Below, piece by piece: positions 8,101 through 35,893 of a stretch of DNA of 35,893 bases. The stretch comes from Coriobacteriia bacterium (GTDB lineage Bacteria > Actinomycetota > Coriobacteriia > Coriobacteriales > Eggerthellaceae), in contig JAUNCQ010000022.1 in assembly GCA_030526515.1 (NCBI GenBank), positions 1 through 35,893 of the forward strand. Reading direction: 5' to 3'. Position 1 is the stretch's first letter; every line of letters starts with the position of its first letter. The position numbers and the translations under genes are program-made. Under the pieces are notes generated by a model. That model was given only the letters and a program-made list of their open reading frames with translations, was not told the origin of the DNA and made no database searches.

Positions 8101-8912
8101 TCCTTCTGGACGGCGGTGCCGCATTTGCGCACCACCACGCACTGGTCCAGAGCCTTCGTCAGATCGCCCAGATCCTGGCTGCCGGAAGCCAGGTACTCCT
8201 CCAGAGCCTGGATGCCCTGCTCAATATCCTGCTGAGCCTTGTCGTTCGTCTTGCCCGGCTTCAGAGTGGCGTACGCGGCCTGAAGGTCCCCGAAAGCCAG
8301 CAGCAAGCGCTTTGCCAAAGCCGACGGCTGCTCCCGCTTCTGGCACGCAACCAAGTCGTCAAAACCGCCAGGCAGTCCGCTTGCCGTGGAAATCATCTGA
8401 GCCAGCAAGCCGGAAAGGCAGGGCTCGTTCATGGACGCGTAGAAGGGATACTCCCTCATCAGAAGGGTGAAGTCGTCCGCCCCCTGCTCCTTCTGCTCGC
8501 TCAAAACAGCGTCCACGGCCGCCGCCAACAGCTCCTCGCCCTCTTTTTCGCCCAGAACCTGGAACTTCGGGTCCAGGCCCAGGTCCAGGGCACTGGCGTG
8601 CAGGATGCGCGAGCACATGCCATGGATGGTGGAGATCCACGCATCGTCTACCTTGCCCGCCTGGTCGAACAGACCCTGAGCGCGCAGCGTGGAGCGCACG
8701 CGGCCTTTCAGCTCCGCCGCGGCCTTTTCCGTGAAGGTGATGGCGCAGATCTGGTCGATGTCGTCCACGCCCGTTCCCGGCTCCACCAAGGCATGGGCAA
8801 TGCGCTGGGTCAGCGTGAAAGTCTTACCGCTGCCTGCGCCTGCGGAAACGTCCACGGGTCCGATCAGGCACTCGACGCATTTTTCCTGCTCAGGGGTGTA
8901 CTTAACCGCCAT
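5190..8912 (-). CDS. addA: AddA-type helicase-nuclease subunit
   Basis: This 1,240-residue protein is the UvrD-superfamily subunit of an AddAB enzyme, which resects double-strand DNA ends for RecA loading. Visible motifs are the Q motif TPEQEKCV, Walker A SAGAGSGKT (23-31), motif II VDEFQDTD (351-358), QQSIYGFRGAD (383-393), the late helicase motif MTIHASKGLEFP, and a C-terminal PD-(D/E)XK nuclease with QGEIDLLC and VVDYKTGG (about 1130-1160). The length matches the family. A low-complexity acidic and alanine-rich linker lies before the nuclease domain. AAGGAGTA precedes the ATG and lies inside the end of addB, three bases after whose stop addA begins, indicating translational coupling. The 3' end overlaps the TetR gene. 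Confidence 0.95.
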   Translation of the reverse strand: MAVKYTPEQEKCVECLIGPVDVSAGAGSGKTFTLTQRIAHALVEPGTGVDDIDQICAITFTEKAAAELKGRVRSTLRAQGLFDQAGKVDDAWISTIHGMCSRILHASALDLGLDPKFQVLGEKEGEELLAAAVDAVLSEQKEQGADDFTLLMREYPFYASMNEPCLSGLLAQMISTASGLPGGFDDLVACQKREQPSALAKRLLLAFGDLQAAYATLKPGKTNDKAQQDIEQGIQALEEYLASGSQDLGDLTKALDQCVVVRKCGTAVQKEACDECRAEHYAVLADFAMLRGGLLLEQLIALARKADAAFTQMKRDSAMLDNNDLIRETLRALDLPQIHDRFKDKFRLVMVDEFQDTDAMQIAIVKHLCGPDMRYLCTVGDAQQSIYGFRGADVAVYRAHQRSLDDPQLQEQASPSKLMLSRNFRSHGDVLAFVKQVCQQKRVFGDGFLDLAAVYDGAGYKAPEPRIQLELISTPAGAKAKEEARRQAQARRIADYFQRMHEGGHALSDMVLLLGSTTHADMYAQAVRNLGFDCIIAGGSLFARAPEVQAAAILLGAVANPRDGQLAFQALTCPAFALSAADLLQLGTFVDEETLRPGRRSLGGGLRQLARELKEGVVLSPALEHAVQVMAKAQAGLRLRPLHEVLLGVLLDSGWVARLQARGAEGAAVLGNLMKAVRMVRQLEEDTTLGPVSIARRFRAQVEEGMKEAPGALNAQGQDAVRIMTIHASKGLEFPVVALAEFDRAPREGALVVRRVGEHTYATLKPATRKVAGKDSPEGAALKAVREQVDLWRGEEPVSEAMLQDADAGTFRGLLVAEAQQAEREEAQRLFYVGATRAKEALCVFMTVKESKSNPEGPYGGLIGDIRAALFGAEEFPWESTTVEYGGSEPALFTVTPVDGEASVDPATDLTAGESNPASAAGMAGPGAEQILLPQVMPLQVLDAHLQEKDDAGLFSYSSIASAAHAKGDDATFGAVDGMADLEIGASDAAASEGSSDEAVVANPSDQDLRPWEELAAAPMGFRDEEEGDAPDSFNVAPTADADKATEFGSALHRLCQLAALAGPEAARAQVVPACRTYGVADRSRLAAALERWLGSTVYARARQFARVQPELPFCLQVEAESGESDSRAGVLQGEIDLLCTAAPGQAAGGPALVVDYKTGGHAGETSEQLKKKHALQAQCYALAVLSGGQESVELVFARVERDDPAGEDSLQTVCYAFDQADVPELRRIVSEQAVRAGAI

Positions 8913-8915
8913 TGC

Positions 8916-11813
8916 CTACTCCTTTCCCTGGTCAACGCCACGCATGGGGCAATTGGTCGCCGCGCAGTACGTGCATACATCCTTCGAACGAGGTCGCGGA
9001 TCAACCTCGCCCGCCTTCATGCGTTCCAGCACCGCCGCCAGCTCCTCTTCCACCCGATCAAGGTCGTCCAGGAAAGACGGCGAGCCGCACTTTTCCGCGT
9101 TGATATTGCACAGGTCTTGAGTGGGATGCAGCACCTGCGCATCGTATGCGCCGGAAATGCCCAAGCGCTTGCCGTAGGATACGTACACCGCGCCCACCGG
9201 CGTCAGGCCCATCCTGCGGCGAACCATCTGCGCATATATGAGCGTCTGCACGTGCAGCGGCGTCACCATGCCCTCCGTCGCCTTGGCCTCGAAGGCATAG
9301 GTCGAAGGAGCGCTGCCCTTGTAATCAACCACCACCGCACGGCCATAGGGGTCCACGTCCAAGCGGTCCAAGCGACCGTGAACATGCAGGCCCGCGTATT
9401 CAATGGGCTGGTCTTCGCCCAGGTTCAGCTCCACACCCTGCGGCGCAAAGTCTGGAAGCAGGCCTGCCTCCCACTCCACGTAAGCCTGCAGCTGGCGCAT
9501 GAGAGCATCTGCCGCCCATTCCTCAGCCTTGGTCAGGGGCACGTAGGCGCTCGACTCGTACAGATAGCGCTCCTCCTCAAGCTGCCCGTAGAACAGCTCC
9601 TTCAAGGTTTCTTGGGCCTGACGGGCATTTTCCCTAGTCACACGTCGCTGACCAGTCATGCGCAAATGCTCGTGAGTCATCTCCAGGATCTTATGGGCGA
9701 AGGAGCCGCGCTCCAGGGGACCGAATCCAGCCTCGATGCCGCTGCTGGCTCCCAGGCGAGATTCCACGAACCACTTGTACGGGCACTGCAGGTACTTCTC
9801 TATAGCGCTGGGCGAAAGCACTGGGAAGTCCAGCAGCTCCTGCTCGGTGCGGCCCGGCAGCAGCACGTTTTCCGCCTCTTCGGGACGAAGGGCGACCTGC
9901 GGCTGCTCAACCCGCACAGCCGCAGCCTGGGCCTGGGGCTGACGAGGATCCAAGGCACAGTCCAGCTGGTCTTCGCCCAGGGTCACACCGTAGGGTCGCA
10001 GCGACCCGGGCAGGCCCATGACCTTGTCCACCTCCGACGGGTTCTGAGGATCGCACCTATAGCAGTCCACCAGCTCCTCCAGCAACGCCGCAGGGCGCAG
10101 TTCCTTGGCATCCGAATCATTCAGGCAACGCACCAGAAGCACGCGCTGGCGCGGAACGCGCAGCACGTGCTGGAAGTTCACTCTGAGCTGATCAATGCGG
10201 CGCTTCGGCTTGAAGGCGCCTATCTGATCCATGACCTCGTCCGTTGCGGTACGGTCGTCCTTCAGCGGATAGTCCTGAGCCGTCAGATCATCCACCACCA
10301 GCATGTTCGCGGACGCTGGCGGCTCCTGGGCCGCGTGACGTAGGGTTGTGAAGTGCACATGAGCCCGAGGAAACTCCGCGCGTGCGTCCACGGATCCACC
10401 GACGGGAACGGCAGCCTGCAGAAGCTCCTCCTGGACCTGTTCCAACGGCAGGCCCAGATCACCGGCGCGCACCAACACCTCGCGCACTGCGCGCGCCGCA
10501 TTGATCTGCAGCATGCGATGGGACTCCGGCCAGTTCATCCGAGTCACCATGGCGGCAATCTGCAGGTTTACCGCCTCCACCAGGTTGCCATCAACCACCG
10601 CGGCCATGAAGTCCCTGCGCTCCTCGTACCCGAAGGCACTCAGGTCAGTCAGAGCCTCGTCCACGGTCTGGCCGCGCCAGCCGCGCACGCGCTCGTCCAG
10701 CTTCTGCGCGCTGCTCACGCTCATGAAGGAAAAGGCGCTCAGGGCAAAGTCACCGATGCGAGAAGGTGCGAAGGTGCCCGGCTCGCCCTCCGTGTCCAGG
10801 AAATCCACCAGGGCGATCCACGCGCGACCGAAGTCGGTACGACGCACCGGCACGTATGCCCGCACGCTGGAACTTACCCCCTGGTCCGCCAGACGGCCTG
10901 CAAGATTCATGAAGCACTGTCGCGGATCCTTTGCCGCGTAGACCACCTCCACGAACTCCCCCGAGCCAGCGGCTACATCATCAACCGCGGCCATCAGCTG
11001 CTCTACCGCCAGCTGATCATGGGCATACGGACCCGCAGCATAGGCGAAGCGCACCGCGCCCTGAGCCTGCACGGGATTCTGAAAATCCGGGCGGAACAGC
11101 GCCGCAGCAAGCTGACGCAGCTCGGGCGCAACCACGGAATCTGCCTCCTGGACTAGGGGCAGATCGGCTTCCCAGACCTGCTGATCCAGGCTGACCAGGA
11201 GCACGTCGGCGTCCAGAGAACCCAGCAGATCATCCTGAGCCGCCGTGGTCTGCAGGTCCAGAGCCACCACGGGAACGCCCTTCAGAACGCCGCGACTCCG
11301 CAGGTCAGCAACCACCTGGGAGTCATCGACCAGGCCCAGGTGGTTCAACAGAGCAGCATAGGCGTGCAACGCGTCCAGCACCTGCAACGTGGCCCCCCTG
11401 AACTGACTGCGATCAGCAGCCAGAGCGGCGGGCAGCGCATCACGGGCGATGGAGCCCGCCAGGTCCACGATGCCCGGCGTCACGGAAAGCGAAGCCTCGT
11501 CAGCGCAGGACTCTTTCGCCCCCTGGACCGCATCCAGCAGCACACGACGAACCATCAGCTCGCGCTGAACCGCATCGAAGCGATGGCGCCCGTCGCCGAA
11601 GAGCTCCCAGCTGTCCTGGAGCCAGTCCTTTAGGGTGACCGCCTGCACGCCCAGCGGGCACCCAGCTTCCGCCAGGTCCCGCTTCACTCGCACGGTTTCG
11701 TCATAGCTGCGCAGCAGCAGCGTGCAGCGGCCGCAGGTGCGGGCTGCCTCCGTTGCCAGCTCAAGCGCGTGGTTTCGTGCCTGTTCGTACGTTGCGTGTT
11801 GGAATATGCTCAT
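8916..11813 (-). CDS. addB: AddB/RexB-type nuclease subunit
   Basis: The 965-residue protein is the partner of AddA. The C-terminal nuclease domain carries VVVDYKGSAPS, and the four iron-sulfur cysteines of AddB are present: C677 in QCPYKWF, then C947, C950 and C955 in CTYCAATNC. In B. subtilis AddB this cluster staples the nuclease domain. No Walker A motif is seen in the N-terminal 100 residues, unlike B. subtilis AddB but like some RexB-type subunits, so ATP hydrolysis probably rests with AddA alone. In the family, AddB contacts the Chi recognition sequence. The start at 11813 has a modest AAAGG upstream, adjoining a GGGCGAAA copy at 11823-11830. It is the first gene of the addB-addA operon. 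Confidence 0.93.
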   Translation of the reverse strand: MSIFQHATYEQARNHALELATEAARTCGRCTLLLRSYDETVRVKRDLAEAGCPLGVQAVTLKDWLQDSWELFGDGRHRFDAVQRELMVRRVLLDAVQGAKESCADEASLSVTPGIVDLAGSIARDALPAALAADRSQFRGATLQVLDALHAYAALLNHLGLVDDSQVVADLRSRGVLKGVPVVALDLQTTAAQDDLLGSLDADVLLVSLDQQVWEADLPLVQEADSVVAPELRQLAAALFRPDFQNPVQAQGAVRFAYAAGPYAHDQLAVEQLMAAVDDVAAGSGEFVEVVYAAKDPRQCFMNLAGRLADQGVSSSVRAYVPVRRTDFGRAWIALVDFLDTEGEPGTFAPSRIGDFALSAFSFMSVSSAQKLDERVRGWRGQTVDEALTDLSAFGYEERRDFMAAVVDGNLVEAVNLQIAAMVTRMNWPESHRMLQINAARAVREVLVRAGDLGLPLEQVQEELLQAAVPVGGSVDARAEFPRAHVHFTTLRHAAQEPPASANMLVVDDLTAQDYPLKDDRTATDEVMDQIGAFKPKRRIDQLRVNFQHVLRVPRQRVLLVRCLNDSDAKELRPAALLEELVDCYRCDPQNPSEVDKVMGLPGSLRPYGVTLGEDQLDCALDPRQPQAQAAAVRVEQPQVALRPEEAENVLLPGRTEQELLDFPVLSPSAIEKYLQCPYKWFVESRLGASSGIEAGFGPLERGSFAHKILEMTHEHLRMTGQRRVTRENARQAQETLKELFYGQLEEERYLYESSAYVPLTKAEEWAADALMRQLQAYVEWEAGLLPDFAPQGVELNLGEDQPIEYAGLHVHGRLDRLDVDPYGRAVVVDYKGSAPSTYAFEAKATEGMVTPLHVQTLIYAQMVRRRMGLTPVGAVYVSYGKRLGISGAYDAQVLHPTQDLCNINAEKCGSPSFLDDLDRVEEELAAVLERMKAGEVDPRPRSKDVCTYCAATNCPMRGVDQGKE

Positions 11814-15641: not shown

Positions 15642-16712
15642 CTAGCGCGTGGCCGCGATGTGCTTCTCCAGCGCCTCCGTATGAATAGAGTACTGCAGCG
15701 CCATTTCCTCCGTGATACGCCCTGCCTTATACAGCTCGAACAGGCTCTGGTCCATGGTGCGCATGCCCTGGGAGCCGCCAGATGCAATGACGGAGTCGAT
15801 CTGATGGCTCTTGCTTTCGCGGATCAGGTTGCGAATGGCCGTGTTGGCCACCATGATCTCGAAGGCCGGAACCACCGTGCCGTCCACGGCAGGCACCAGC
15901 TGCTGGCTGACCACGGCCTGCAGGACCATGGAAAGCTGGATGCGCACCTGGCGCTGCTGGGACGCCGGGAACGCGTCGATGATGCGGTCCACCGTAGCCG
16001 CCGCGCCGTTGGTGTGCAGGGTGCTGAACAGCAGCTGGCTCATCTCGGCGGCGCTCATGGCGGTGGCAATGGTCTCGGCATCGCGCATCTCGCCCAGGAG
16101 CAGGATGTCCGGGCTCTCGCGCATGGCAGAGCGCAAGGCCTCGGAGTAGGTGGCCACGTCGGTGGGGATCTCGCGCTGGGTCACAATGCAGGAACCGTGC
16201 TTGTGGATGTACTCGATGGGGTCCTCCATGGTCACGATGTGCCCGGACCTCATGTGGTTCAGCCGATCGATGATGCAGGCCAGCGTGGTGGACTTGCCCA
16301 CGCCCGACGGACCGGTGACCAGCACCAGGCCCTTCTGGAAGTTGGCGCAGCGCAGCACCTCCTCGGGAATGTGGAACTTCTTCGGGTCGGGAATGCCGAA
16401 GGGGATCACACGGACCACGCAGCCGAAGGAGCCGCGCTGGCGGAACACGTTCACACGGAAGCGGCCCACGCCGCTCACGGCAAAGCTGAAGTCGTCGTCG
16501 TGGTTCTGGCTGTTCACGAATATGTCGATGTTGCGATCGGCCAGCTCGTACACGCTGCGGACGAACTCCTCGGTGTCCTTGGGCATGAGCGGCGGCGCGT
16601 CCAAGCGCACCTGTCGACCGCCCGCTCGGTACGAAAGGGGCAGGCCCGCTACCACGAACATGTCCGAGGCATCGTTGTTCACCACGCCCTTCAGGATCTG
16701 GGTCAGATTCAT
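15642..16712 (-). CDS. pilT: PilT-type ATPase
   Basis: The 356-residue protein is a hexameric secretion ATPase of the PilT branch, which powers pilus retraction. It has the N2-domain start ILKGVVNNDASDMFV, Walker A GPSGVGKST (134-142), the Asp box around TMEDPIEYI, Walker B LLLGEMRDAET (204-214), the His box STLHT (230-234) and the AIRNLIRE-type retraction motif. PilB-type zinc cysteines are missing, so it is not an extension ATPase. I chose the ATG at 16712: AGGAGA lies before it and overlaps the upstream stop codon. It is the last gene of the cluster, 11 bases after the preceding gene. It is the only ATPase of this type in the window. Confidence 0.93.
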   Translation of the reverse strand: MNLTQILKGVVNNDASDMFVVAGLPLSYRAGGRQVRLDAPPLMPKDTEEFVRSVYELADRNIDIFVNSQNHDDDFSFAVSGVGRFRVNVFRQRGSFGCVVRVIPFGIPDPKKFHIPEEVLRCANFQKGLVLVTGPSGVGKSTTLACIIDRLNHMRSGHIVTMEDPIEYIHKHGSCIVTQREIPTDVATYSEALRSAMRESPDILLLGEMRDAETIATAMSAAEMSQLLFSTLHTNGAAATVDRIIDAFPASQQRQVRIQLSMVLQAVVSQQLVPAVDGTVVPAFEIMVANTAIRNLIRESKSHQIDSVIASGGSQGMRTMDQSLFELYKAGRITEEMALQYSIHTEALEKHIAATR

Positions 16713-16723
16713 GCGCTCTTCTC

Positions 16724-17182
16724 CTATTTCTTCCCCGGCCAGTAGCCCTGGCCATCTTCGACCTGAGGCCAGCTCACGCTGGTCTTCCATTTGGTTACGG
16801 TATAGCTCAGGTCATCGTTGACCTGCAGACACACGGTCAGCCGGCGTATCTGGTCACTGCTGAACGCTACGCTGACCTGGGATTCTTCAATTATTGCCAC
16901 ATCGGGCGAAACAGACCGCACGGCCTCCATGGCCGCCTCCTTCGTGCCGCCCGCCTCCTTGACGCCGGCCAGCTGCTCGTCCACCAGGGCCACGAACTCC
17001 TGGGCCGCCACCTCGTTGGCGTAGGCGCCGGAGGTGTAGTCCCGCTGGTTGTTGGCCTCGTAGCTGCTGGCTCGCGCCGTGGTGAACGAAAGCACCGCCA
17101 GCACGGCCATGCACAGGGTCACCACCAGCACGAACAGGCTCAGCGGGCCAATGCGGACGGAGCCGGTTTCCCTATACGCCAT
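16724..17182 (-). CDS. small single-pass membrane protein of the pilus-like cluster
   Basis: The 152-residue protein has a short N-terminus, one membrane helix at about residues 13-34 and an outer domain with a conserved-looking beta-rich C-terminus (SVAFSSDQIRRLTVCLQ, then SYTVTKWKTSVSWP). The layout is that of a pseudopilin or pilus-accessory protein, but the glycine before the helix (IGPLSLF) is not followed by the glutamate at +5 that type IV prepilins carry. It overlaps the upstream gene by 11 bases and has AAAGGGGG before its ATG. The function is inferred from context only. Confidence 0.75.
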   Translation of the reverse strand: MAYRETGSVRIGPLSLFVLVVTLCMAVLAVLSFTTARASSYEANNQRDYTSGAYANEVAAQEFVALVDEQLAGVKEAGGTKEAAMEAVRSVSPDVAIIEESQVSVAFSSDQIRRLTVCLQVNDDLSYTVTKWKTSVSWPQVEDGQGYWPGKK

Positions 17183-17714
17183 GTCCGGGCCCCCTTTCGC
17201 TCACATACTTGGCCGTTCGCAGCGTGTACACCGGCGCATTGTAGCGGCTCACCGTGATGGTGGCCCGGTACAGGACGCCGCCCTTGCGCTTCTCCGGCTC
17301 GACCTGGCAGTTCACCACGTAGGCGCCGGACAGGTACTCGCTGGTCTCCGTGAAGGAAGCCTCCTCCACCTGGTAGTACGTGGTCTCCTCCATGCCCGTG
17401 GGGTCGGCGGAAAACGCCTCTGCGCCGTTGCGGGCACCGGTGGATGCCAGCGCTGCAGCATAGGCGCCCTGGTTGGCGGTTTCGCCCAGGGAGTGGGAAT
17501 ACGCCAGCAGGGACACCACCACGCCCAGGGAAATGGTCACAAACAGCAGCAACATGACGGCCTCCATGATGAGGGCCGTGCCGTGCCACGAAGACCGGCC
17601 ACGCTTGACCACGTGGCCTTCCATGCCCGTCCTTCTACGACGAAGCATGCCCTGGCCGCGCTGCTGGTCCTGCTCCTGAAGGTAGAGCAGCTCTTCGTCA
17701 TCGGGGTTGATCAC
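17172..17714 (-). CDS. single-pass membrane protein of the pilus-like cluster
   Basis: The 180-residue protein has an acidic start, a basic patch (LRRRRTG) and one membrane helix at about residues 46-71 that begins HGTALIMEAV. This resembles TadE or prepilin N-termini, with a glutamate close to the processing glycine but at +6 rather than +5. The outer part includes YLSGAYVVNCQVEPEKRK and beta-strand-like segments. It starts at a GTG that overlaps the previous stop (GTGA), with GGGAGGTGAG as ribosome binding site. It is probably a minor subunit or an alignment factor; no enzyme motif is visible. Confidence 0.75.
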   Translation of the reverse strand: MINPDDEELLYLQEQDQQRGQGMLRRRRTGMEGHVVKRGRSSWHGTALIMEAVMLLLFVTISLGVVVSLLAYSHSLGETANQGAYAAALASTGARNGAEAFSADPTGMEETTYYQVEEASFTETSEYLSGAYVVNCQVEPEKRKGGVLYRATITVSRYNAPVYTLRTAKYVSERGPGHGV

Positions 17715-18301
17715 GAGCTCTCACCTCCCTGGCTGCGCAGGGCCACGTAGGTTTGACCCACATCGGTGCCAATGGTCACCAGGCCGTCCTGGATGCGGAA
17801 ACCGAACCGCTTGATGGGGCACAGCGCCGTGGCGCGGGCCGGGTCGCAGGCGGTTCCGGCAAGTGCGTACTCCTGCATGAGCTGGCCCTGGTACTGGTAC
17901 AGGCGGGTTTCGAACTGATCCTGGCCGATCCGCTCGCGCATGATGAGGGCGGGGCCTTCGGGACCCTGGCCCTTCGCCGCCGCGTCCACGGCGTCCATGG
18001 CGCGCAGGCTGGTGGCCAGCAGCGATGACTGCAGGCGCACCTGCTCGCCGTCGGTGCGGGCCTGCTCCAAGCCACGGTAGGCATTGGTTCCCAGGGCGAA
18101 GACCAGCACCAGGCTCATGATCAGCACCGCGAACAGGATCAGGATGAACAGGCGGTCCATATGGCGAATATGGAAGCTTTCGTTGGTCTGCTCCTCCTGG
18201 TCCACGCTGACCTTCAGCTCAATGGCCGGCGCACCCACGTTGGTGATCTTGCCGCGGGTCAGGCGGGTAGTCCGCTCGCGATATTTCCTTCGCCCGATCA
18301 T
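17711..18301 (-). CDS. DUF4860-like membrane protein
   Basis: The 196-residue protein has a basic N-terminus, one strongly hydrophobic helix at about residues 51-72 preceded by HMDRLF, and an extracytoplasmic domain with LYQYQGQLMQEYALAG, a CX8-10C pair and a final TYVALRSQGG segment. The shape and the gene order fit DUF4860 proteins found in type II/IV secretion loci of Firmicutes and Coriobacteria. The assignment is from memory of the family, not a search. The start overlaps the previous stop by four bases (ATGA). The role is unknown, presumably structural in the envelope machine. Confidence 0.7.
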   Translation of the reverse strand: MIGRRKYRERTTRLTRGKITNVGAPAIELKVSVDQEEQTNESFHIRHMDRLFILILFAVLIMSLVLVFALGTNAYRGLEQARTDGEQVRLQSSLLATSLRAMDAVDAAAKGQGPEGPALIMRERIGQDQFETRLYQYQGQLMQEYALAGTACDPARATALCPIKRFGFRIQDGLVTIGTDVGQTYVALRSQGGESS

Positions 18302-18624
18302 TTGAGCTCCACCTTCACCGTAGGCGGCACGTTCTCAGCCACGCAGTCGTACATGACCACGTAAGCGGAATGGTTGATGACCAGGCCGTAGTTCTTTTCC
18401 AGGTAGCCCAGGGTCGCCGGATAGGCGCCCTCAACCGCGCAGCACTGCATGCTTGAGCGCAGGATGGCTTCGCGCACGGCATCGCAGCCGTTGCGCTGAG
18501 CCACATCGGCCGCAATGGAGTTGGCCAGCACGGCGCAGGCAGCCAGCACGGCGCACAGCAGCACCACCGCCGCCACGATGGCGCGGTTGCTGAACTTGCG
18601 GCTTGTCAACGTCACATGGCCCAT
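18298..18624 (-). CDS. short pilin-like membrane protein
   Basis: The product is about 108 residues, with one membrane helix (about residues 14-36) followed by a short soluble domain holding cysteines (NGCDAVREAIL, SSMQCCAVEG, VVMYDCVAEN). Size and layout match a small pseudopilin, but there is no canonical G/FxxxxE processing motif. The start is uncertain: ATG codons at 18630 and 18624 follow GGATAGG, and 18624 has the better spacing. The ribosome binding site overlaps the stop of the GspF-type gene, so the two are translationally coupled. Confidence 0.72.
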   Translation of the reverse strand: MGHVTLTSRKFSNRAIVAAVVLLCAVLAACAVLANSIAADVAQRNGCDAVREAILRSSMQCCAVEGAYPATLGYLEKNYGLVINHSAYVVMYDCVAENVPPTVKVELK

Positions 18625-18631
18625 GGGCATC

Positions 18632-19678
18632 CTATCCAATAGAGGCCATGATGCCGATCAGGGGCAGCATGACCGCGATCAGCGTGGCGCCCACGGCAAT
18701 GGTCAGCAGCGCGGCCAGAGCCGGCTCGATGCTGTCCAGCAGACCGTCGATGCGGACCACGGCTTCGTCGAAGAACTCGCCCGAAAGGCCCTGCAGCACG
18801 TCTTCGGTGGTGCCGCTGCGGCCGCCCACCAGCATCATGCGGGCGTGGACGGAGTCGAACAGGGCGGTTTCGTAGATGGCCTGGGGCAGGCTCTTGGGGT
18901 TTTCCTGGTCGACCATCTTGGCGAAGGTCCGCTCCGCGGCAGCCTTCAGCTGCGGGTGGTCGGTCATGGTGATGGCACTTTCCATGGCGCGGTCGTTGTT
19001 CACGCCGGCGGAAACGTAGGTGGCCAGCACCGCGGTGAAGCGGGCCAGGGCCATCTGGTACATGGCATCACGGCTCAGGGGAATCTTCTCCATGGCGCGG
19101 ATGAGCTTCACGCGCCCCTGGCCACGGCTCATCATGGAGCAGGCAAAGGCCACCACCATGGCCACCGCAGTCAGGCCCAGGGCGGCGTAGCCAATGCCCA
19201 TGAACAGGTTCACGTAGGCAAAGCCGCTGGCCATGAAGTCACCGGAAACGGAGTTGTACACGTTCACGAACACCGGCAGGATCACCAGCACCGTGAAGAT
19301 CAGCACCGCGGTCATGACGGCCAGCAGGCCGGCGGGGTAGCTCATGGCGCTGCGGAGCTTGGCGAACAGGCGGTTCTCTTCGCTGTAGTAGGCGGCCAGG
19401 GCGTTCAGCACGTTTTCCAAACGGCCGGATTCTTCGCCCACCGAAACCATGTTCAGCGCGTAGTCGGGGAAGCACCCGGTGTTGCGCATGGCCTCCGCAA
19501 GGGGACGGCCCTCGATGAGCTCCCGGTACAGGTCGTCGCACACGGCCTTGAAGCTGCCCTGCTCGGTGTTGTCTGCCAGCAGGCTGACCGCTTCGTCCGT
19601 GGTGATGCCGGCCGCGATCATCATGGCCATGCCTTCGCAGAACACGCTCAGCGCATCGCTATCGAGCAGCTTTGCCAT
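18632..19678 (-). CDS. GspF/PilC-family inner-membrane platform protein
   Basis: The 348-residue protein has two cytoplasmic GspF domains and three membrane helices (about 114-137, 156-182 and near the C-terminus). The signature GEESGRLENVL stands at 81-91, and YPAGLLAVMT opens the first helix, as in PilC, GspF and ComGB. It should form the membrane base on which the PilT-type ATPase acts. It is somewhat shorter than PilC (about 400), lacking some N-terminal sequence, which is nearer to ComGB. GGAGGGACC supports the ATG at 19678, twelve codons inside the longest frame. It is the first gene of the cluster proper. Confidence 0.9.
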   Translation of the reverse strand: MAKLLDSDALSVFCEGMAMMIAAGITTDEAVSLLADNTEQGSFKAVCDDLYRELIEGRPLAEAMRNTGCFPDYALNMVSVGEESGRLENVLNALAAYYSEENRLFAKLRSAMSYPAGLLAVMTAVLIFTVLVILPVFVNVYNSVSGDFMASGFAYVNLFMGIGYAALGLTAVAMVVAFACSMMSRGQGRVKLIRAMEKIPLSRDAMYQMALARFTAVLATYVSAGVNNDRAMESAITMTDHPQLKAAAERTFAKMVDQENPKSLPQAIYETALFDSVHARMMLVGGRSGTTEDVLQGLSGEFFDEAVVRIDGLLDSIEPALAALLTIAVGATLIAVMLPLIGIMASIG

Positions 19679-19749
19679 GGTCCCTCCTTGCGTTCGTCTT
19701 GTTCTTGCAATCATAAATCATGCCGCGTTCCTTCATGGTAATTCCGCAG

Positions 19750-24859: not shown

Positions 24860-24894
24860 CATGCCCGCCCGCGCATCGTCGCAAGCACCAGCAC

Positions 24895-24976
24895 GCTCAC
24901 AGCAAAAGGGGCGAAAGGGAGCCCGGCAAACGCCAAGCTCCCTTTCGCCCCTTACATTTATATATGCGGAATGCGC
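24895..24976 (-). terminator. 82-bp terminator element, copy A, built from an inverted GGGCGAAA pair
   Basis: A perfect 17-bp stem (24906-24922 with 24937-24953) encloses a 14-base loop. Each arm contains GGGCGAAAGGGAG. On the minus strand the stem is followed by TTTT, placing it as the terminator of the DUF1847 gene, whose stop is at its right edge. The whole 82 bp is repeated at 29044-29125 with about six differences. Confidence 0.85.
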
Positions 24977-25746
24977 TAGCCGCAGCAGCCCTTGCTCTTC
25001 TGCTCCTGCCATTGCGCCAGGGCCTCATCGCTCACGAAGCCCGGTGCGGCCAGCGTGGGATCGCAGGTCATCATACGGCTCCACAGCGAAGCGGTCTGGC
25101 TTGCGTACAGCGCCGAGCCGGTGTTGTTGCACATGGCCTTGTCCTTGGCCAGCAGGGTGGTGCAGGGCGCATCGGACAGGCGGTAGAAGTAGGCGTCGTG
25201 GCCCACGCACAGGCCCATGACCACGTTCAGGTCGGTTTTGGCGGCGTTCAGGCGCTCCACCTGCATGAGCGGGTTGCAGGCCACGGATCCAAAGTTGCAG
25301 CAGCTTTCCTCCAGACCCATGTCCGCATTGGACAGGGCGCCCACCTTGCAGGTGTAGCCCACCACCTCGTAGCCGTGGATGCGCAAGATCTTGGTGAAGA
25401 TGCGGGCTTCCTCCGCCACGCCGGCGCAGAAGGCAATGCCGATCTTGCGGTAGCCCATGCGGTGGCAGTAGTCCATGGTTTCCTCCACGCGGCACATCTG
25501 CTCGGAGAAGCCGCGGGACGTGGTGATGGCCGCGGCCTTCATGAAGGCGTAGGTGTCTTCGTCCCCTTCATAGGAGCCGCGCAGGCTGCTCACGTCATCG
25601 GCCGTGGTCTGGGACGTCAGGCAGAAGGACGGGTAGCGGCCGTTGTTGTGGGCGCAGCCCAAGGTCTTGCAGTCCACGCAGGTGCGCTCCGGCACCTCGA
25701 TCTTCTGGGTGGCAATGCTGGGGGTGCAGCGGTTCACTGCGCACAT
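24976..25746 (-). CDS. DUF1847 cysteine-rich metal-binding-type protein
   Basis: The 256-residue protein has many cysteines in family-typical places: RTCVDCKTLGC near residue 22, FCAGVAEEA, EESCCNFGSVACNP, VGHDAYF and KAMCNN, with a GCCG end. This pattern is that of DUF1847, annotated as a metal-binding domain of unproven function. It is the last gene of an ABC importer operon (receptor, ATPase, permease, then this), 30 bp after the permease and with GGAGGG before its ATG. No signal peptide or membrane segment is seen, so it should act in the cytoplasm. It may handle or sense the imported substrate; that is inference from position. Confidence 0.85.
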   Translation of the reverse strand: MCAVNRCTPSIATQKIEVPERTCVDCKTLGCAHNNGRYPSFCLTSQTTADDVSSLRGSYEGDEDTYAFMKAAAITTSRGFSEQMCRVEETMDYCHRMGYRKIGIAFCAGVAEEARIFTKILRIHGYEVVGYTCKVGALSNADMGLEESCCNFGSVACNPLMQVERLNAAKTDLNVVMGLCVGHDAYFYRLSDAPCTTLLAKDKAMCNNTGSALYASQTASLWSRMMTCDPTLAAPGFVSDEALAQWQEQKSKGCCG

Positions 25747-25776
25747 GGCAGGCCCTCCTTTCTTTTGGCGGCGCCG

Positions 25777-26703
25777 CTAGCGCCAGGTGGTGAAGCGCTT
25801 CTTGATCCAAGTGGTCAGGGCGCTCAGGATGGTCACCACAATGCCGCACACGATGATGCCGGCGATCATGGCCTCGTAGTTCGCGTAGATGTTGGAGTTG
25901 GTGATGTAGAAGCCTATGCCGGCCTTGGCGCCGATCATTTCCGCAAAGGTCAGCATCAGGAACGCCGTGGTCAGGCCCACCCGCAGGCTGTCCAGCACGC
26001 CGGGCAGCACGTAGGGCAGAATCACCCGGGTGATCATGGTCGTGTTGCGCACGCCCAGGGCGCGGGCGTTGTCCAAGATGCGCCCGTCAAGCGACGACAC
26101 GCGCAGCACCATGCTCAGGAACTGGGGCCAGAACACGCCGATCAGGATGATGCACACGGACGCTAGGCGGAACGTGGGCATGATCACCACCAGGTACGGG
26201 GCGAAAACCGTCGGCGGAATGGGCGCCATCACGTTGGCTATGGGATAGAACATAGCCCGCAGTCGCGGAATCCAGCCGCAGATCACGCCCAGGACCACGC
26301 CCGACGAAAGGCCTATGAAGTAGCCGACCAGCAACAGCGTCACGGACGACCACACGTTGTTCAGCAGCGTGGGATAGTTGGTGGCGAAGATGTTGAACAC
26401 CTGCTCCGGCGCCGGAACCAGCACGTTGGGCATGACGGCCAGCTTGGTGGTGGATATCTCCCAGCCCAGCATGGCCACCCACAGCAAGGTCACTATGTCC
26501 GTGGGACCGGTGGTGTAGTTGCCCTTGCGGTGCTTGGCGTACAGGTTCGCCAGGTACAGCAGCTCCATGATGCCAATGGCCACCAGCAGCGGATAGTACG
26601 TGCAGGTGATGGGCTTCTGGTTCGGAACGTAGCAGGTGATAAGCACCAGGATAACCAGGAGGATGTGGGCCACCACGAACTGGCGGTTCAGGAATCGCTT
26701 CAC
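25777..26703 (-). CDS. ABC transporter permease (SsuC/TauC/NrtB type)
   Basis: The 308-residue membrane protein has about seven hydrophobic helices and the EAA loop DNARALGVRNTTMITRVILP, which docks on the ATPase. It belongs to the BPD permease class used for nitrate, sulfonate, taurine and thiamine-precursor uptake; the substrate cannot be read from sequence. I chose the GTG at 26703 because its ribosome binding site AAAGGTAGG overlaps the ATPase stop codon and the product then begins KRFLNRQFVVAHILL, a plausible first segment. The permease has an additional N-terminal pair of helices compared with SsuC (about 260 residues). Confidence 0.88.
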   Translation of the reverse strand: MKRFLNRQFVVAHILLVILVLITCYVPNQKPITCTYYPLLVAIGIMELLYLANLYAKHRKGNYTTGPTDIVTLLWVAMLGWEISTTKLAVMPNVLVPAPEQVFNIFATNYPTLLNNVWSSVTLLLVGYFIGLSSGVVLGVICGWIPRLRAMFYPIANVMAPIPPTVFAPYLVVIMPTFRLASVCIILIGVFWPQFLSMVLRVSSLDGRILDNARALGVRNTTMITRVILPYVLPGVLDSLRVGLTTAFLMLTFAEMIGAKAGIGFYITNSNIYANYEAMIAGIIVCGIVVTILSALTTWIKKRFTTWR

Positions 26704-26710
26704 GGCCGGC

Positions 26711-27577
26711 CTACCTTTCGTCCTCTGAGTCAAAGAGCTCGGCGTCCGCCTGGTCCAGGTCGTCGGCAGGGCCGTCCTGGTAGAACAGGTCCGTGAGCCG
26801 CGCCCGCAGGGCCTCTGCCCGGGGATTCCGGCGCAGCTCCTCCCGATTGCGAGGACGCGGGATGTCAACGTCAATGTCCTCCAGCACGCGGCCGTGGCCC
26901 ATGAAGACCACGCGGTCGGCCAGCAGGATGGCCTCGGAGATGTCGTGGGTCACGAAGACCACCGTCTTGCGACGGCTTCCCGAGCGCCACAGCTCGTCCA
27001 CCAGCTGCTGCAAGGAGCGACGAGTGCGCACATCCAGGGCGCCGAAGGGCTCGTCGAAGAACAGGATGTCCGTGTCCATGGCCAGGGCGCGGGCAATGGC
27101 AACGCGCTGCTGCATGCCGCCGGAAAGCTGGTAGGGGTACTTGTCCGCCGCATCCGCCATGTCAACCTTAGCCAGGTATTCGTCGGCGCGCTGGCGGATC
27201 TGCTCCTTGGTCAGCCCGCGGCCCAGCAGCTTGCTGGCCTGCTCCACGCCGAACTCCACGTTCTGCCGCGCCTTCATCCACGGGAACAGGGAGTAGTTCT
27301 GAAACACGATGGACCGATCCAGGTCCGGGCCGTCCACCTTGCGGTCGTCAACGTAGATTGCGCCCTTGGTAGGCTGGCTCAGGCCCAGCAGCAGGCGCAG
27401 GAGCGTGGACTTGCCACAGCCGGAATGGCCGATCAGGCACAGGAACTGCCCGTCGGGCACCTCCAAGCACACGTTGTCCAGCACGTAGTCCGCCTGGACC
27501 TGGTCGTCCGCGTTCTTGCGGGCATCCAGCGCGTCCTCGTAGGAAAAGCTCACGCCGTCTATGCGAATGACTCCCAT
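26711..27577 (-). CDS. ABC transporter ATPase (SsuB/TauB/NrtD type)
   Basis: The 288-residue protein has Walker A GHSGCGKST (50-58), Q-loop VFQNYSLFPW, signature LSGGMQQR (151-158), Walker B ILFFDEP (171-177) and H-loop THDISEA (210-216). This layout is that of the ATPases for nitrate, sulfonate and taurine importers. An insertion of about ten charged residues (DARKNADDQV) precedes the beta-strand leading to Walker A, and an acidic C-terminal tail follows. GGAAGG lies before the ATG. The stop overlaps the ribosome binding site of the permease, seven bases before its start. Confidence 0.93.
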   Translation of the reverse strand: MGVIRIDGVSFSYEDALDARKNADDQVQADYVLDNVCLEVPDGQFLCLIGHSGCGKSTLLRLLLGLSQPTKGAIYVDDRKVDGPDLDRSIVFQNYSLFPWMKARQNVEFGVEQASKLLGRGLTKEQIRQRADEYLAKVDMADAADKYPYQLSGGMQQRVAIARALAMDTDILFFDEPFGALDVRTRRSLQQLVDELWRSGSRRKTVVFVTHDISEAILLADRVVFMGHGRVLEDIDVDIPRPRNREELRRNPRAEALRARLTDLFYQDGPADDLDQADAELFDSEDER

Positions 27578-27618
27578 GCGGGTCCTTCCCGGGTTTTCTT
27601 TCGTCCTCAGTCAAAACA

Positions 27619-27649
27619 GAGCAGGCCAAGCGCTGGGCTCGGCCTGCTC
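27619..27649 (-). terminator. intercistronic hairpin between receptor and ATPase genes
   Basis: GAGCAGGCC (27619-27627) pairs with GGCCTGCTC (27641-27649); the stem can be extended by a wobble pair and three more pairs, leaving a five-base loop. On the minus strand it is followed by TGTTTTG. It may act as a leaky terminator or 3' stabiliser, so that the receptor is made in excess over the membrane components, as is usual for such systems. Confidence 0.6.
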
Positions 27650-27674
27650 GTCAGCATTGCAGATGGTACCTGAT

Positions 27675-28802
27675 TTATGCGTTGTTCTTGGCGAACTCGG
27701 CGTCCAGGTCCTTCCAGAACTGCTCGTTGGGCTCGCGCTCCATCAGGGTGTCCAGAGCCATGCGGTACACACTGGTGGAAACGAACTCGTCAACGGCGGG
27801 AGCGCCGTCGCCGATTGCCTCGACGGTCTTCAGGTCCTCGTAGAAGGCCTTCACCGCGGTGCTGCACGGATCCGGGCTCAGGTTCATGACGGCCTCGTAG
27901 GTGTCGGTGCCGTACAGGCCGGCGCGGACGAAGTCCTCCTTCTGCTCGGAGTACTTGACCATGATGGGCACAGCGGTCTCCGGGTCGGTCTTGAACACCT
28001 TGTAGCCGCGGAGCAGGGCCACCTCGAAGTCCACCAGGGAAAGGAACTTTTCCTTGTAGGCCTTTTCGGAAGCGTTCTGGCGGCAGCAGGGATAGTCGCC
28101 GCACAGGTCCTTGACGGTGCCCAGCACCTTGATGCCGTTGTCCTTGTTCACGTAGCCGAAGGCGTTGTTGCACAGGCAGAAGTCGACTTCGCCCTTCAGG
28201 GTTGCCTGCACCAGGGACTGCTCGTCGTCCAGCGGGGTGAAGGTCACGTCGCCGCCGTCAATGTCCAGGCCGGCGTCCTTCAGCCAGGAGCGGAACACGA
28301 TCTGGCCGGTTTCTGGACGATGGAAGCCAATGTTGTAGCCCTTGAAGTCCTCCGGCTTGGCCAGCGGGGCGTCGAAGTCGGTCTTGCCCAGGATCTCGGT
28401 GCCGTTCAGAACCGTGCCGCCGATGATGTACATGGGAGAGCCCTTGGCAATGTACTCGCAGGTCTGCACGACGCCCATGAGCATCAGGTCAAGGTTGCTG
28501 GTGGAAAGGGACGCGAAGGCCTCGGCCAGCTCCACGATCTGGAACTCGACGTTGCAGCCCTCCTCCTTGAAGTAGCCCAGCTCCTCGGCAATGACGGAGG
28601 GGGCGATCTTGAACAGCTTGCCGCGACGGCCGCAGACCAGCTTTTCACCCTTGCCCTTGGTCATGAACTCCTCGGTCTTGGCCTCGGTCTTCTCAGGGGC
28701 TGCGTTACCGGCGGAACCGCTGCAGCCAACCAGCGCGGAGCCACCCAGGACTGCGGCTGCAGCCATGGATACGCCAACAAAGGAGCGCCTAGTCATGCTC
28801 AT
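27675..28802 (-). CDS. Tat-exported ABC substrate-binding lipoprotein (NrtA/SsuA/TauA-like)
   Basis: The 375-residue protein has a twin-arginine start (MTRRSFVG), a hydrophobic stretch and lipobox LVGC (C27), so it should be folded before export and then lipid-anchored. The mature part follows the type II periplasmic-binding fold of NrtA/SsuA receptors: IAPSVIAEELGYFKEEG, QIVELAEAFASLSTSNLDLM, YNIGFHRPETGQIVFRSWL and a central VDFCLCNNAFGY. Cysteines in DLCGDYPCCRQN are unusual for a receptor and could touch a cofactor or metal; Tat export would fit that. The start lacks a strong ribosome binding site; ATG at 28796 is an alternative. It is the first gene of the operon, behind an AT-rich upstream region. 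Confidence 0.88.
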   Translation of the reverse strand: MSMTRRSFVGVSMAAAAVLGGSALVGCSGSAGNAAPEKTEAKTEEFMTKGKGEKLVCGRRGKLFKIAPSVIAEELGYFKEEGCNVEFQIVELAEAFASLSTSNLDLMLMGVVQTCEYIAKGSPMYIIGGTVLNGTEILGKTDFDAPLAKPEDFKGYNIGFHRPETGQIVFRSWLKDAGLDIDGGDVTFTPLDDEQSLVQATLKGEVDFCLCNNAFGYVNKDNGIKVLGTVKDLCGDYPCCRQNASEKAYKEKFLSLVDFEVALLRGYKVFKTDPETAVPIMVKYSEQKEDFVRAGLYGTDTYEAVMNLSPDPCSTAVKAFYEDLKTVEAIGDGAPAVDEFVSTSVYRMALDTLMEREPNEQFWKDLDAEFAKNNA

Positions 28803-29043
28803 TCACATACACCACTTTCTATTCTGCTTCGTTTTGATAGCTCTTTCGGTTGATTCAATCAGCTACTGGGTCATATCGAAAAGTTTCTATATGCCAGTAG
28901 TAGATGCAATCTACTAGAAAACGACTTTAACAAATTCGATGTGTTTTCAAAACGAAGTATTTGAATATGAATTGGAAACCACAGGCAAACGGCGACGCGG
29001 AGAAGCCTGCAGACTCTGGTGCTTGCCCTCCGGCCACGCGCAT
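28803..29043. promoter_or_regulatory. AT-rich upstream region of the ABC operon
   Basis: No gene is supported. About 28803-28985 is clearly more AT-rich than its surroundings. Dyads include AGTAGATGCAATCTACT (28899-28915), TGATTCAATCA (28851-28861), and a 10-bp inverted pair CTTCGTTTTG / CAAAACGAAG (28827-28836 and 28948-28957) about 110 bp apart. These look like regulator sites for the importer operon, though I could not fix a -35/-10 pair. 28986-29043 shows nothing notable. Confidence 0.5.
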
Positions 29044-29125
29044 GCTCACAGCAAAAGGGGCGAAAGGGAACCCGACAAACGTCAAGCTCCCTTTCGCCCC
29101 TTACTTTTTTATATGCGGGATGCGC
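29044..29125 (-). terminator. 82-bp terminator element, copy B
   Basis: This is the near-identical second copy of the 24895-24976 element. GGGGCGAAAGGGA pairs with TCCCTTTCGCCCC, one base pair at the inner end is lost relative to copy A, and minus-strand TTTT follows. It lies nine bases after the stop of the FMN-barrel gene. The two copies differ at about six positions over 82, mostly in the loop and the AT-rich flank. Confidence 0.85.
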
Positions 29126-29133
29126 CGAATGGG

Positions 29134-29532
29134 CTAGCAGTCGATCTGCTCGCCTTCGCCCATGACCTGGATCAGACGGGCCTCGGCGTCCTCCAGCCAG
29201 AAGCACATCATCTTGTGGCCGGTTTCATCGTTGTAGATGTTGCGCAGGTGCGGTGCGGCCTCCAGCATGGCCTCAGCGTAGGCGTAGTCCGTGGCGAACA
29301 CGGCCTTGCCGGTGTAGCGGAGCCACAGGCCCTCGCCGTTGTCGGTGCAGATTTCACACTTGGGATTGGCCACCAGCTGCTTGTAGACGTCCTTGAAGTC
29401 GCCCACGCCGAAGATGACCTTGCCGTCGGCCTCCATGACCGCGCCCAGGGGGCGCATCTTGGGCTGGTCGCCGTCGACGGTGGCCAGGTAGAAGGGCTTG
29501 TTGGCGCTCAGGAATTCCATCAGCTTGCTCAT
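29134..29532 (-). CDS. pyridoxamine-phosphate-oxidase-like FMN-barrel protein
   Basis: The 132-residue protein has the small split-barrel pattern: FLSANKPFYLATVDG, QPKMRPLGAVMEADGKVIFG, KDVYKQLVANPKCEICT and LWLRYTGKAVFATD. This group binds FMN or F420 and includes many poorly characterised reductases. It is too short for true PdxH. I prefer the second of two close ATG codons (29532) because AGGAG then lies eight bases upstream; the first is too near. It sits between the copy B terminator and a repeat-rich gap and is probably monocistronic. Confidence 0.85.
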   Translation of the reverse strand: MSKLMEFLSANKPFYLATVDGDQPKMRPLGAVMEADGKVIFGVGDFKDVYKQLVANPKCEICTDNGEGLWLRYTGKAVFATDYAYAEAMLEAAPHLRNIYNDETGHKMMCFWLEDAEARLIQVMGEGEQIDC

Positions 29533-29592
29533 GCGCATGCTCCTTTCGGAAGGCGGTCGCAGAGGGCGGCCGCAATTTCAGACAACGCTATT

Positions 29593-33320: not shown

Positions 33321-34091
33321 ATGTGCGGCCGCTTTACCGCCATATCCCAGGAGGAGCTGGAGGACGTGGTCCGCAGCGTGGAGGAGGCCATTGCCGCATC
33401 CGCGGCAGCCGACGCAACGGCAGCGGTTGGCGCGACGATGGCGGACGGCGCGGCGGGGCTTTCTCCCACTGCTTCTGCACCGGGGCCCCTGGTCACGCCC
33501 GGAAGCACGGCGCCCGTGCTGGTGCACGCCGGCCCCTGGCATCAGGAGAAGGGGACGTGCTGCGGCAGCGGCTGCGGCAAGTGCCCCTGGACCCGCAACC
33601 CGCTTGCGGTGAAGTCCATGGAGCTGACCTGGGGATTTGAAGTCGATTGGCAGAAGCAGCCGGTGTTCAACACCCGCATTGAGCATGCGGGCGATCTGGG
33701 CAGCATGTGGGCGGAGAGCCTGGGGCATCGCCATTGCGTGGTGCCGGTGCATAGGTTCTTCGAACCGCATCAGAATGAGGTCGTGGTCAGCCCGCGGACG
33801 GGCAAGACCACCAAGCGACAGTACGCCTTCGGACCGGCGGAGGGCAGCCCGCTGCCGTGGCTGCTGCTGGCGGGCGTGTTCAGCAACGACCGGTTCTCGG
33901 TGGTGACCACGGAGCCGAACGCCGTCATGCGGCCGATTCACGATCGGATGCCGCTGGTACTTGAGCCCCACGAGGTGGCCACCTGGCTGAGCCCGGACTA
34001 CGCCCAGCTGGCAGATCGCAGCCGCACGCAGCTGCATGCGGCTCCCGAGCATCCGGACGTTCCCAGCTTCCAGCAGCTGACTCTGTTCTAG
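33321..34091 (+). CDS. SRAP-family DNA-protein crosslinking protein (YedK/HMCES) with cysteine insert
   Basis: The 256-residue protein begins MCGRF, exposing Cys2, which in this family bonds covalently to abasic sites in single-stranded DNA. The other active-site residues are recognisable: N117 and E121 in FNTRIE, E148 in RFFEP and H207 in IHDRMP. Between residues 25 and 95 it has an alanine-rich stretch and then C80, C81, C85 and C88 in CCGSGCGKCPW, not part of YedK or HMCES as I know them and suggestive of a metal site. It starts three bases after the cyclo-ligase stop with a weak ribosome binding site, so it may rely on coupling. Its TAG stop shares three bases with the convergent gene's stop. 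Confidence 0.9.
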   Translation: MCGRFTAISQEELEDVVRSVEEAIAASAAADATAAVGATMADGAAGLSPTASAPGPLVTPGSTAPVLVHAGPWHQEKGTCCGSGCGKCPWTRNPLAVKSMELTWGFEVDWQKQPVFNTRIEHAGDLGSMWAESLGHRHCVVPVHRFFEPHQNEVVVSPRTGKTTKRQYAFGPAEGSPLPWLLLAGVFSNDRFSVVTTEPNAVMRPIHDRMPLVLEPHEVATWLSPDYAQLADRSRTQLHAAPEHPDVPSFQQLTLF

Positions 34092-35893
34092 CGCGTGGTC
34101 ACGGCCTTGGCGGAGGACCAGGCGGAGTAGTATCGCTTGCCGCCGACGGTCTTGTAGGTGCGGACTTTCACGTAGTAGCGCGTTTTCGCCCTCAGCTTGG
34201 TGATCTTCTTAGCGGTGGTGGAGGTGCCGCGGACCGTGACGGTCTTAGTGGCGGAGGAGCCCTTGGCGCGGTATTGGATTTGGTATCCGCTGGTTTGGGA
34301 AACCCGCTTCGACCAGCGCGCGGTGAAGGCGCGCTTGGAAGCGCGCAGGCTGGTCACGCTGGTAGCCCGCGGCTTGATGGTGAAGCGCAGGGTGGTGCTG
34401 CCGGTGATGGATTGGCCGGACGCTGCGGTCACGGTCACGGCGTAGGTTCCCACCAGCTTGCGGCCGGCTGCGTAGCGGACGGTGTACGCCGATTCGGGCA
34501 GGAGATCGCCGTTCAGTCGGACGGCGACGCGCGGCGTGCGGGCCTTACCGTTGTAGGTGTAGGTGCTGGTGGACAGGCGGACATCGCAGTAGTCCAGCGG
34601 CGTCGCGTCGGGGACGGGGTCGACATTGGGCTGCGGGTCCGGGTCAGAGCTCGGGTCGGGCTGCGGGTCCGGATCGACGCCAGGGCCGGGATTGGGGTCG
34701 GGGCCGGGACCGACGCCAGGTTGCGGTTCAGGGTCCGGGTTGGGGTCCGGGTCAACGCCGGGTTGCGAGCCGGGGTCGGGGTCGGGCTGCGGATCGGGAT
34801 TGGGATCGGGGCTCGGATCAGGGTCGATCCCCGGGTCGGGGTCCACCACGGGCGGACGCTCCAGCTTGGCAATGGGCTCCGAGGCAGTCCGGGCATCGCA
34901 GCGGGTGCACTCGTAATGCTGGCTGCCCTCGTAATCGTACGTGGGCTGGCGGTCGACGACGGGGCTTTCGCCCCAAACATGACCCTGCACGGAGGGGGCG
35001 TTGTACACGGGACGCGAGTAGGTCGGATAGTCCTTGGGGCAGGTCAGGGCGCCGTCGGTGGACCAATCGTAATGGCTCAGGTCCTGGAAGGTGGCGTCGC
35101 TCTTCAGGTAGTAGCGATAGGAGATGGCGGCGTCGAAGCCCTTGTCCGACTTGTTGCCATCGGCGTCGACGATCGTGGGGTCGTCCCAGGTCACGTCCAC
35201 GTGGTACCAAACGCCGTCCAGCTGGACCATGCTCCAACCGTGGCACATGGCGTCGCTAGTCACGTAGGCGCAGGGCACGCCTAGGCGGCCGAGCAGCAGC
35301 TTGTAGGCCATGGCGTATCCCTGGCAGACGGGCTTGCCCAGGATCAGCGCGCCGTAGGAAGTGTGGCTGATGGGCGGGGCGTCGTGGTCGTAGGCGCAGG
35401 TGCGAACCAGGTAGTCATGCATGGCCTGGGCCTTCTGAAGCGGGGTCATGCAGACGTTCGCCCAGGTCAGAGCCTCGTCGACCTTGCGATCAAGAGAGGC
35501 GCGGGCGGCGGTGATTTCGTCCAGGGTGCCGAAGGTGAAGTCCCAGGTCACGTACATGACGCACTTGCTGGTGCCGTACTTGGTGACCGAGAAGGGGAAG
35601 TAGAACATTTCCGGGTCGTCCCACACCATCTGGAGGATGGGCGACACCTCCTCGGAGGACAGGCCGTACTCGGCAATGCTCACGCCGTAGAAGGAGTACG
35701 ACAGGCCGCCCAGGGTCAGCGTGACCTTCCGATACGTGCTGGCGGCGTCCTTGATCTTCTGGGCGACCTCCTGCTGCAGGTCCGTGGCCTGGGGTGACAG
35801 GGCGTCGGGAGTCGAGACGGCGGTGCGGAGGGCGGTGTCGACGTAATCGGGGTCGTGGAGGGGGTCGTAGGTTTGGGTGGTTTTGACGAGCGG
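34088..35893 (-). CDS. secreted transglutaminase-like protein with Asp-Pro linker, Ig-like and FN3 domains (5' end missing)
   Basis: The frame stays open to the right edge, so the start and signal peptide are not seen; 601 residues are visible. In order: a coiled N-terminal region, a transglutaminase-like core with GKPVCQGYAMAYKLLLGRLG (Cys 190), CHGWSMVQLDG (His 218) and YHVDVTWDDP (Asp 233), a CTRC pair, a long Asp-Pro repeat, an Ig-like domain (STYTYNGKARTPRV to TTLRFTIKP) and a final FN3-like domain ending YYSAWSSAKAVTTR. The design is that of cell-surface or secreted proteins of Coriobacteria and clostridia. The catalytic set is complete, so it could be a peptidase or cross-linker. The internal GTG at 35683 is not needed as a start. 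Confidence 0.85.
   Translation of the reverse strand, partial: PLVKTTQTYDPLHDPDYVDTALRTAVSTPDALSPQATDLQQEVAQKIKDAASTYRKVTLTLGGLSYSFYGVSIAEYGLSSEEVSPILQMVWDDPEMFYFPFSVTKYGTSKCVMYVTWDFTFGTLDEITAARASLDRKVDEALTWANVCMTPLQKAQAMHDYLVRTCAYDHDAPPISHTSYGALILGKPVCQGYAMAYKLLLGRLGVPCAYVTSDAMCHGWSMVQLDGVWYHVDVTWDDPTIVDADGNKSDKGFDAAISYRYYLKSDATFQDLSHYDWSTDGALTCPKDYPTYSRPVYNAPSVQGHVWGESPVVDRQPTYDYEGSQHYECTRCDARTASEPIAKLERPPVVDPDPGIDPDPSPDPNPDPQPDPDPGSQPGVDPDPNPDPEPQPGVGPGPDPNPGPGVDPDPQPDPSSDPDPQPNVDPVPDATPLDYCDVRLSTSTYTYNGKARTPRVAVRLNGDLLPESAYTVRYAAGRKLVGTYAVTVTAASGQSITGSTTLRFTIKPRATSVTSLRASKRAFTARWSKRVSQTSGYQIQYRAKGSSATKTVTVRGTSTTAKKITKLRAKTRYYVKVRTYKTVGGKRYYSAWSSAKAVTTR
34607..34855 (-). repeat. Asp-Pro-rich repeat within the surface protein
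   Basis: About 83 residues consist mainly of alternating DP, DPNP, DPQP and QPGV units, with the DNA repeating GGGTCNGGG-like hexamers. It forms a stiff, negatively charged spacer between the enzyme part and the Ig/FN3 part. Such tracts vary in length between strains. Confidence 0.85.

Follow-up and report, generated by a model that had tools for sequence, protein, structure and literature searches.

GGRCGAAA, a candidate DNA uptake sequence in a genus of Eggerthellaceae, with inverted pairs that may serve as terminators

The octamer GGRCGAAA is abundant in the genome of a gut actinobacterium of the family Eggerthellaceae, and its copy number, strand balance, intergenic excess, facing (+-) pairs near stop codons and accompanying pilus and com genes match the description of uptake sequences, for which reason the motif was filed as uptake-sequence-like. 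We regard it as probable that GGRCGAAA is the DNA uptake (self-recognition) sequence of one Eggerthellaceae genus and that inverted pairs of it have been co-opted as terminators; the uptake, its receptor, the termination and the copying of such elements are steps that we infer. In the mechanism proposed, a component of the type IV pilus, perhaps a minor pilin, would prefer octamer-bearing DNA, which would enter via ComEA/ComEC and then recombine; the bias in uptake, together with recombination, would pile up the octamer around the chromosome. Wherever two facing octamers came to lie just past a gene, they would form a GC-rich hairpin that may have been co-opted as a Rho-independent terminator. 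With slightly less assurance, we also consider it likely that an entire uptake-sequence system, comprising a self-DNA word, a type IV pilus reader and co-opted terminators, evolved independently in the Actinomycetota, apparently within a single genus.

The genome is a draft assembly of 2.42 Mb in 93 contigs, about 520 kb of which was read directly as stretches, and octamer over-representation was ranked in 435 kb. Foremost in this ranking was GGGCGAAA (325 observed, 19 expected), followed by GGACGAAA (176 observed, 18 expected). Against a background with the motif masked, the two words were in 26-fold and 15-fold excess, respectively, and the other one-mismatch variants mostly stood at about 1-fold, the highest being GGGCGAAG (3.3-fold) and GGAGGAAA (3.6-fold); because these other variants lie near background, the core is GGRCGAAA with sharp edges. 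The extended flanking consensus is weak, G being rare at position -4 and positions 12-14 leaning to MCG. Across the 2.42 Mb, GGGCGAAA occurs 1,778 times (883 and 895 copies by strand) versus 40 times (26 and 14) for the same word read backward, a density of about one copy per 1.4 kb that rises to roughly one site per 0.8 kb when GGRCGAAA is counted whole. The two strands are interleaved, with 49 copies on each over 140 kb of one contig. Some 43% of the GGGCGAAA copies are intergenic in a sample of which intergenic DNA makes up 12.5%, an over-representation of about 3.5-fold, these fractions being approximate as the gene calls came from our own codon-based finder, seeded with identified genes in this GC-rich genome; just over half of the copies lie inside genes. 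Sites are spaced more evenly than at random (CV of 0.78 versus 0.93+-0.04; 0/2000 simulations). Three low-GC windows of 4 kb are poor in the motif, the longest motif desert holds ordinary conserved genes, and a check for depletion in mobile DNA rested on only two integrase-family genes.

The motif was met in two similar elements of a 35,893-nt stretch of this genome, hereafter the window, which carries 33 copies of GGGCGAAA where 1.6 are expected. The features concerned, by window position, are as follows.

24886..24976, minus strand: copy 1 of a 91-nt repeat, covering the 3' region past the DUF1847 gene, with a terminator-like hairpin (sequence repeat, folding)
24906..24953, minus strand: 22-bp stem with 4-nt loop of copy 1, the GC-rich stem being followed by TTTTGC on the minus strand (folding)
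24909..24916, plus strand: octamer GGGCGAAA in the first stem arm, copy 1
24943..24950, minus strand: octamer GGGCGAAA in the second stem arm, copy 1
24976..25746, minus strand: gene for a DUF1847 protein (PF08901), upstream of copy 1, closing an ABC-transporter run (domain match)
25777..28802, minus strand: genes of a nitrate/taurine/sulfonate-type ABC transporter (permease, ATPase, substrate-binding protein), between both copies
29035..29125, minus strand: copy 2 of the 91-nt repeat, covering the 3' region past the PNPOx-like gene, with a terminator-like hairpin (sequence repeat, folding)
29055..29102, minus strand: stem of about 21-22 bp with 4-nt loop of copy 2, whose minus-strand pairing survives the differences from copy 1 (folding)
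29058..29065, plus strand: octamer GGGCGAAA in the first stem arm, copy 2
29092..29099, minus strand: octamer GGGCGAAA in the second stem arm, copy 2
29134..29538, minus strand: gene for a PNPOx-like protein (PF01243), upstream of copy 2 (domain match)

The sequence-only reading had described two 82-bp stretches, some 93% identical with about six differences and 4.1 kb apart, each following the stop codon of a minus-strand gene. This description is borne out in full: positions 24895-24976 and 29044-29125 align without gaps and differ at 6 positions as counted from the sequences (76/82, 92.7%), the genes are those of the DUF1847 and PNPOx-like proteins, and a longer repeat of 91 nt, 90% identical, takes in both stretches, its copies lying 4,149 nt apart. 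The same reading had pictured a stem of 14-17 bp with the octamer in both arms; hairpin and octamers are present as described, the stem being longer, at 22 bp with a 4-nt loop. As for the 82-bp element being a family in its own right, the genome search returned no third full-length copy beyond the two in the window, and the family is rather that of the octamer and its inverted pairs. A search of Rfam gave no match. We note that a second DUF1847 paralogue of the genome (36% identity; L134, G000:C34:13675-14304) also adjoins an inverted GGGCGAAA pair, at C34:13610-13642.

The 61-nt cores of both window copies fold with z-scores of -8.8 and -9.8, none of the shuffled sequences folding as well. 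By eye, the copies differ at three places in the stem, two of them together making one compensatory change from G-C to A-T and the third a change from G-C to G-U, which leaves a pair in RNA of the minus strand alone, the strand from which the upstream genes are read. The fold is thus kept in the orientation of these genes, which is what their terminators would require. Both elements further show a GC-rich stem past a stop codon and then a short U-tract (TTTTGC), the make-up of Rho-independent terminators, and they are accordingly predicted from their sequence to terminate transcription of the DUF1847 and PNPOx-like genes.

How the two copies came to resemble each other is suggested by the one other member of the genus compared, the sister MAG SUG1186, whose syntenic region (80-91% nucleotide identity) carries, as judged by eye, different GC-rich and motif-free stem-loops at both 3' positions. 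As these stem-loops are unrelated to the window elements, and as the window copies have their flanks in common, the duplication or gene conversion put forward from the sequence alone is favored over independent origin, one copy having probably been copied onto the position of the other, within the locus and recently. That both instead arose independently toward one extended consensus, neither being a recent copy of the other, would agree with the recurrence of the GGGGCGAAAGGGAGC arms in other pairs of the genome; we nonetheless find it quite unlikely, given that the loop and outer flanks (CTCACAGCAAAA, TATATGCGGRATGCGC) common to the window copies fall outside the general consensus and that the stem-loops at the two places in the sister genome are unrelated.

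Inverted pairs of the octamer are a genome-wide feature. With a gap of 4-40 nt, GGGCGAAA forms 62 facing pairs against 19 back-to-back (-+) pairs, and the backward-read control word forms 0 inverted pairs. Among intergenic pairs of the sample, 33 are facing and 5-6 back-to-back, the facing ones having a stop codon at a median distance of 25 bp. Not every pair follows a stop codon, however, a point that the sequence-only reading had left to be checked: 6 of the 29 with known context in the sample sit between divergent genes. The stem extends inward by at least 3 bp past the octamer in 45% of pairs versus 21% of shuffled partners. T is raised in the flanks of the pairs, at 2.1-3.4 of 8 positions versus 1.6 in the background; the T-tails are modest, and pairs in tandem context show a small difference between downstream (2.5 of 8) and upstream (2.1 of 8) flanks (n = 15). 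The earlier proposal, in which an inverted uptake-sequence-like pair makes up the terminator, agrees with all of these genome-wide measurements, uptake and termination themselves being what we still infer.

The genome encodes the machinery associated with natural transformation, namely a type IV pilus, ComEA and ComEC. The last two are encoded by a comEA-comEC pair, and a type IVa pilus locus comprises PilB, PilT and PilC, followed by proteins with a pilin signal; further pilins are encoded outside this locus, making several pilin-like proteins in the genome. Adjoining pilB-pilT-pilC is the gene for a protein of 2,225 aa whose N-terminus bears a type IV pilin signal (L087:11094-17771, plus strand, G000:C70), perhaps a tip adhesin. 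The window itself contains, at 15642-19714 on the minus strand, a cluster with genes for a T2SSE ATPase, for T2SSF and DUF4860 proteins and for small unassigned proteins, which could be a competence-type pseudopilus; T2SSE matches like that of this cluster occur in several relatives.

The word, and above all its paired form, is restricted to close relatives. In the sister genome, GGGCGAAA is enriched more weakly (530 copies versus 102 for the control). Counted with a gap of 4-34 nt, facing pairs come to 55 in this genome and to 6 in the sister species; no other genome in two overlapping samples (138 from the family and 298 from the class) has more than 2, so that beyond the genus the class essentially lacks the paired form. 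Of 42 aligned sites, just 7 are shared with the sister genome (78% nucleotide identity), no better than the 8 of 34 for control words of similar composition, which indicates that motif sites turn over. ComEC is present in nearly all relatives devoid of the motif, and four relatives with PilB (G002, G004, G008 and G043) yielded no comparable octamer in 80-kb samples; given that both proteins occur in motif-free relatives, the machinery does not predict the motif. PF00437 matches in the sister genome come to only three, and none of them scores like a PilB. Two candidate second motifs were dropped, GGGCAAAG in the sister genome for want of facing pairs and GGCAAAG-type words, whose excess appeared to be codon-driven. 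Separately, relative G004 (L095-L098) shows a strong excess of octamers overlapping into the palindrome TGTTTCACGTGAAACA, which we take to resemble parS sites.

Known uptake sequences offer close parallels. Those of H. influenzae and Neisseria are listed with 1,471-1,965 copies, the same +- bias in pairs has been described for Neisseria (PMC1852404), and 65% of H. influenzae USS lie in ORFs versus about 86% coding DNA (PMC2346458). Reuse of uptake sequences as terminators is documented in Neisseria and the Pasteurellaceae (PMC1852404, PMC3630211, PMC2346458). GGRCGAAA resembles the DUS of Neisseriaceae in its number of copies per genome, its presence on both strands and its intergenic excess, in the +- inverted pairs that form terminators (predicted here) and in the type IVa pilus and ComEA/ComEC machinery of its host. 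Unlike the DUS (GCCGTCTGAA and its dialects), it is an unrelated word and is found in a member of the Eggerthellaceae (Actinomycetota, Coriobacteriia) rather than in a proteobacterium, and where the DUS receptor is ComP, the reader here would be a putative pilus component. With the USS of Pasteurellaceae (AAGTGCGGT, ACAAGCGGT; receptor candidate PpdA/ComN), it shares a similar copy number, a comparable share in ORFs, the +- bias in close pairs and a short, sharp core, but again the word is unrelated and the phylum different, and strong AT-rich downstream modules are missing from GGRCGAAA. A need for a short uptake sequence in transformation is presented as a feature of Neisseria and the Pasteurellaceae only (PMC3630211). 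In the open-access literature, we found uptake sequences only from Neisseriaceae and Pasteurellaceae, with none reported from Actinomycetota and no report naming them together with Coriobacteria; GGGCGAAA as a search word returned unrelated uses among the matches listed. If the uptake reading is right, the rise of self-DNA words, and the recruitment of these as terminators, would be a repeatable outcome of evolution, a further receptor-word pair would await discovery, and natural transformation would be implied in gut Eggerthellaceae. The genus would then stand as a young replicate of DUS/USS evolution, arisen independently, in which the origin of such a word could be studied within a one-genus system.

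The main surviving rival is that GGRCGAAA is recognized by an abundant DNA-binding protein, such as one that organizes the chromosome, with relaxed constraint clustering its sites after genes and chance hairpins being kept there as terminators. The sharpness of the octamer and the evenness of its spacing would suit any sequence-specific binding protein, and the finding of ComEC and PilB in relatives lacking the motif also leans this way. We nevertheless judge this explanation unlikely, as one GGRCGAAA in about 0.8 kb is a high density for sites of this kind, no protein emerged as a candidate, and the pattern equals that of uptake sequences feature by feature. A Chi-like site regulating AddAB in repair and recombination was likewise considered. 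Chi sites are short over-represented words, and genes for AddA- and AddB-like helicase-nucleases (UvrD/PDDEXK domains) are found in the same window (5190-11813, minus strand). Chi words are, however, strand-biased with replication, whereas over 140 kb of one contig the copies of GGRCGAAA show no orientation bias along the replichore; it is this balance of the strands that mainly disfavors the Chi reading, which moreover does not predict the intergenic excess or the inverted pairs near stop codons and which we hold to be very improbable. Least credible of all is the notion that the elements are terminators and nothing else, a widely used GC-rich hairpin with the octamer in its arms by happenstance. 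The window elements are indeed strong hairpins after stop codons, but this reading leaves unexplained the single octamers in coding DNA, which accounts for just over half of the GGGCGAAA copies, and 128 of the roughly 205 intergenic GGRCGAAA copies are unpaired.

Two other repeats were observed in the window. Near the contig start, a 22-nt inverted repeat (155-176 and 283-304) has arms that are 95% complementary and 106 nt apart. Degenerate direct repeats at 34623-34850 lie inside a gene encoding transglutaminase-core and fn3 domains (34088-35683, minus strand).
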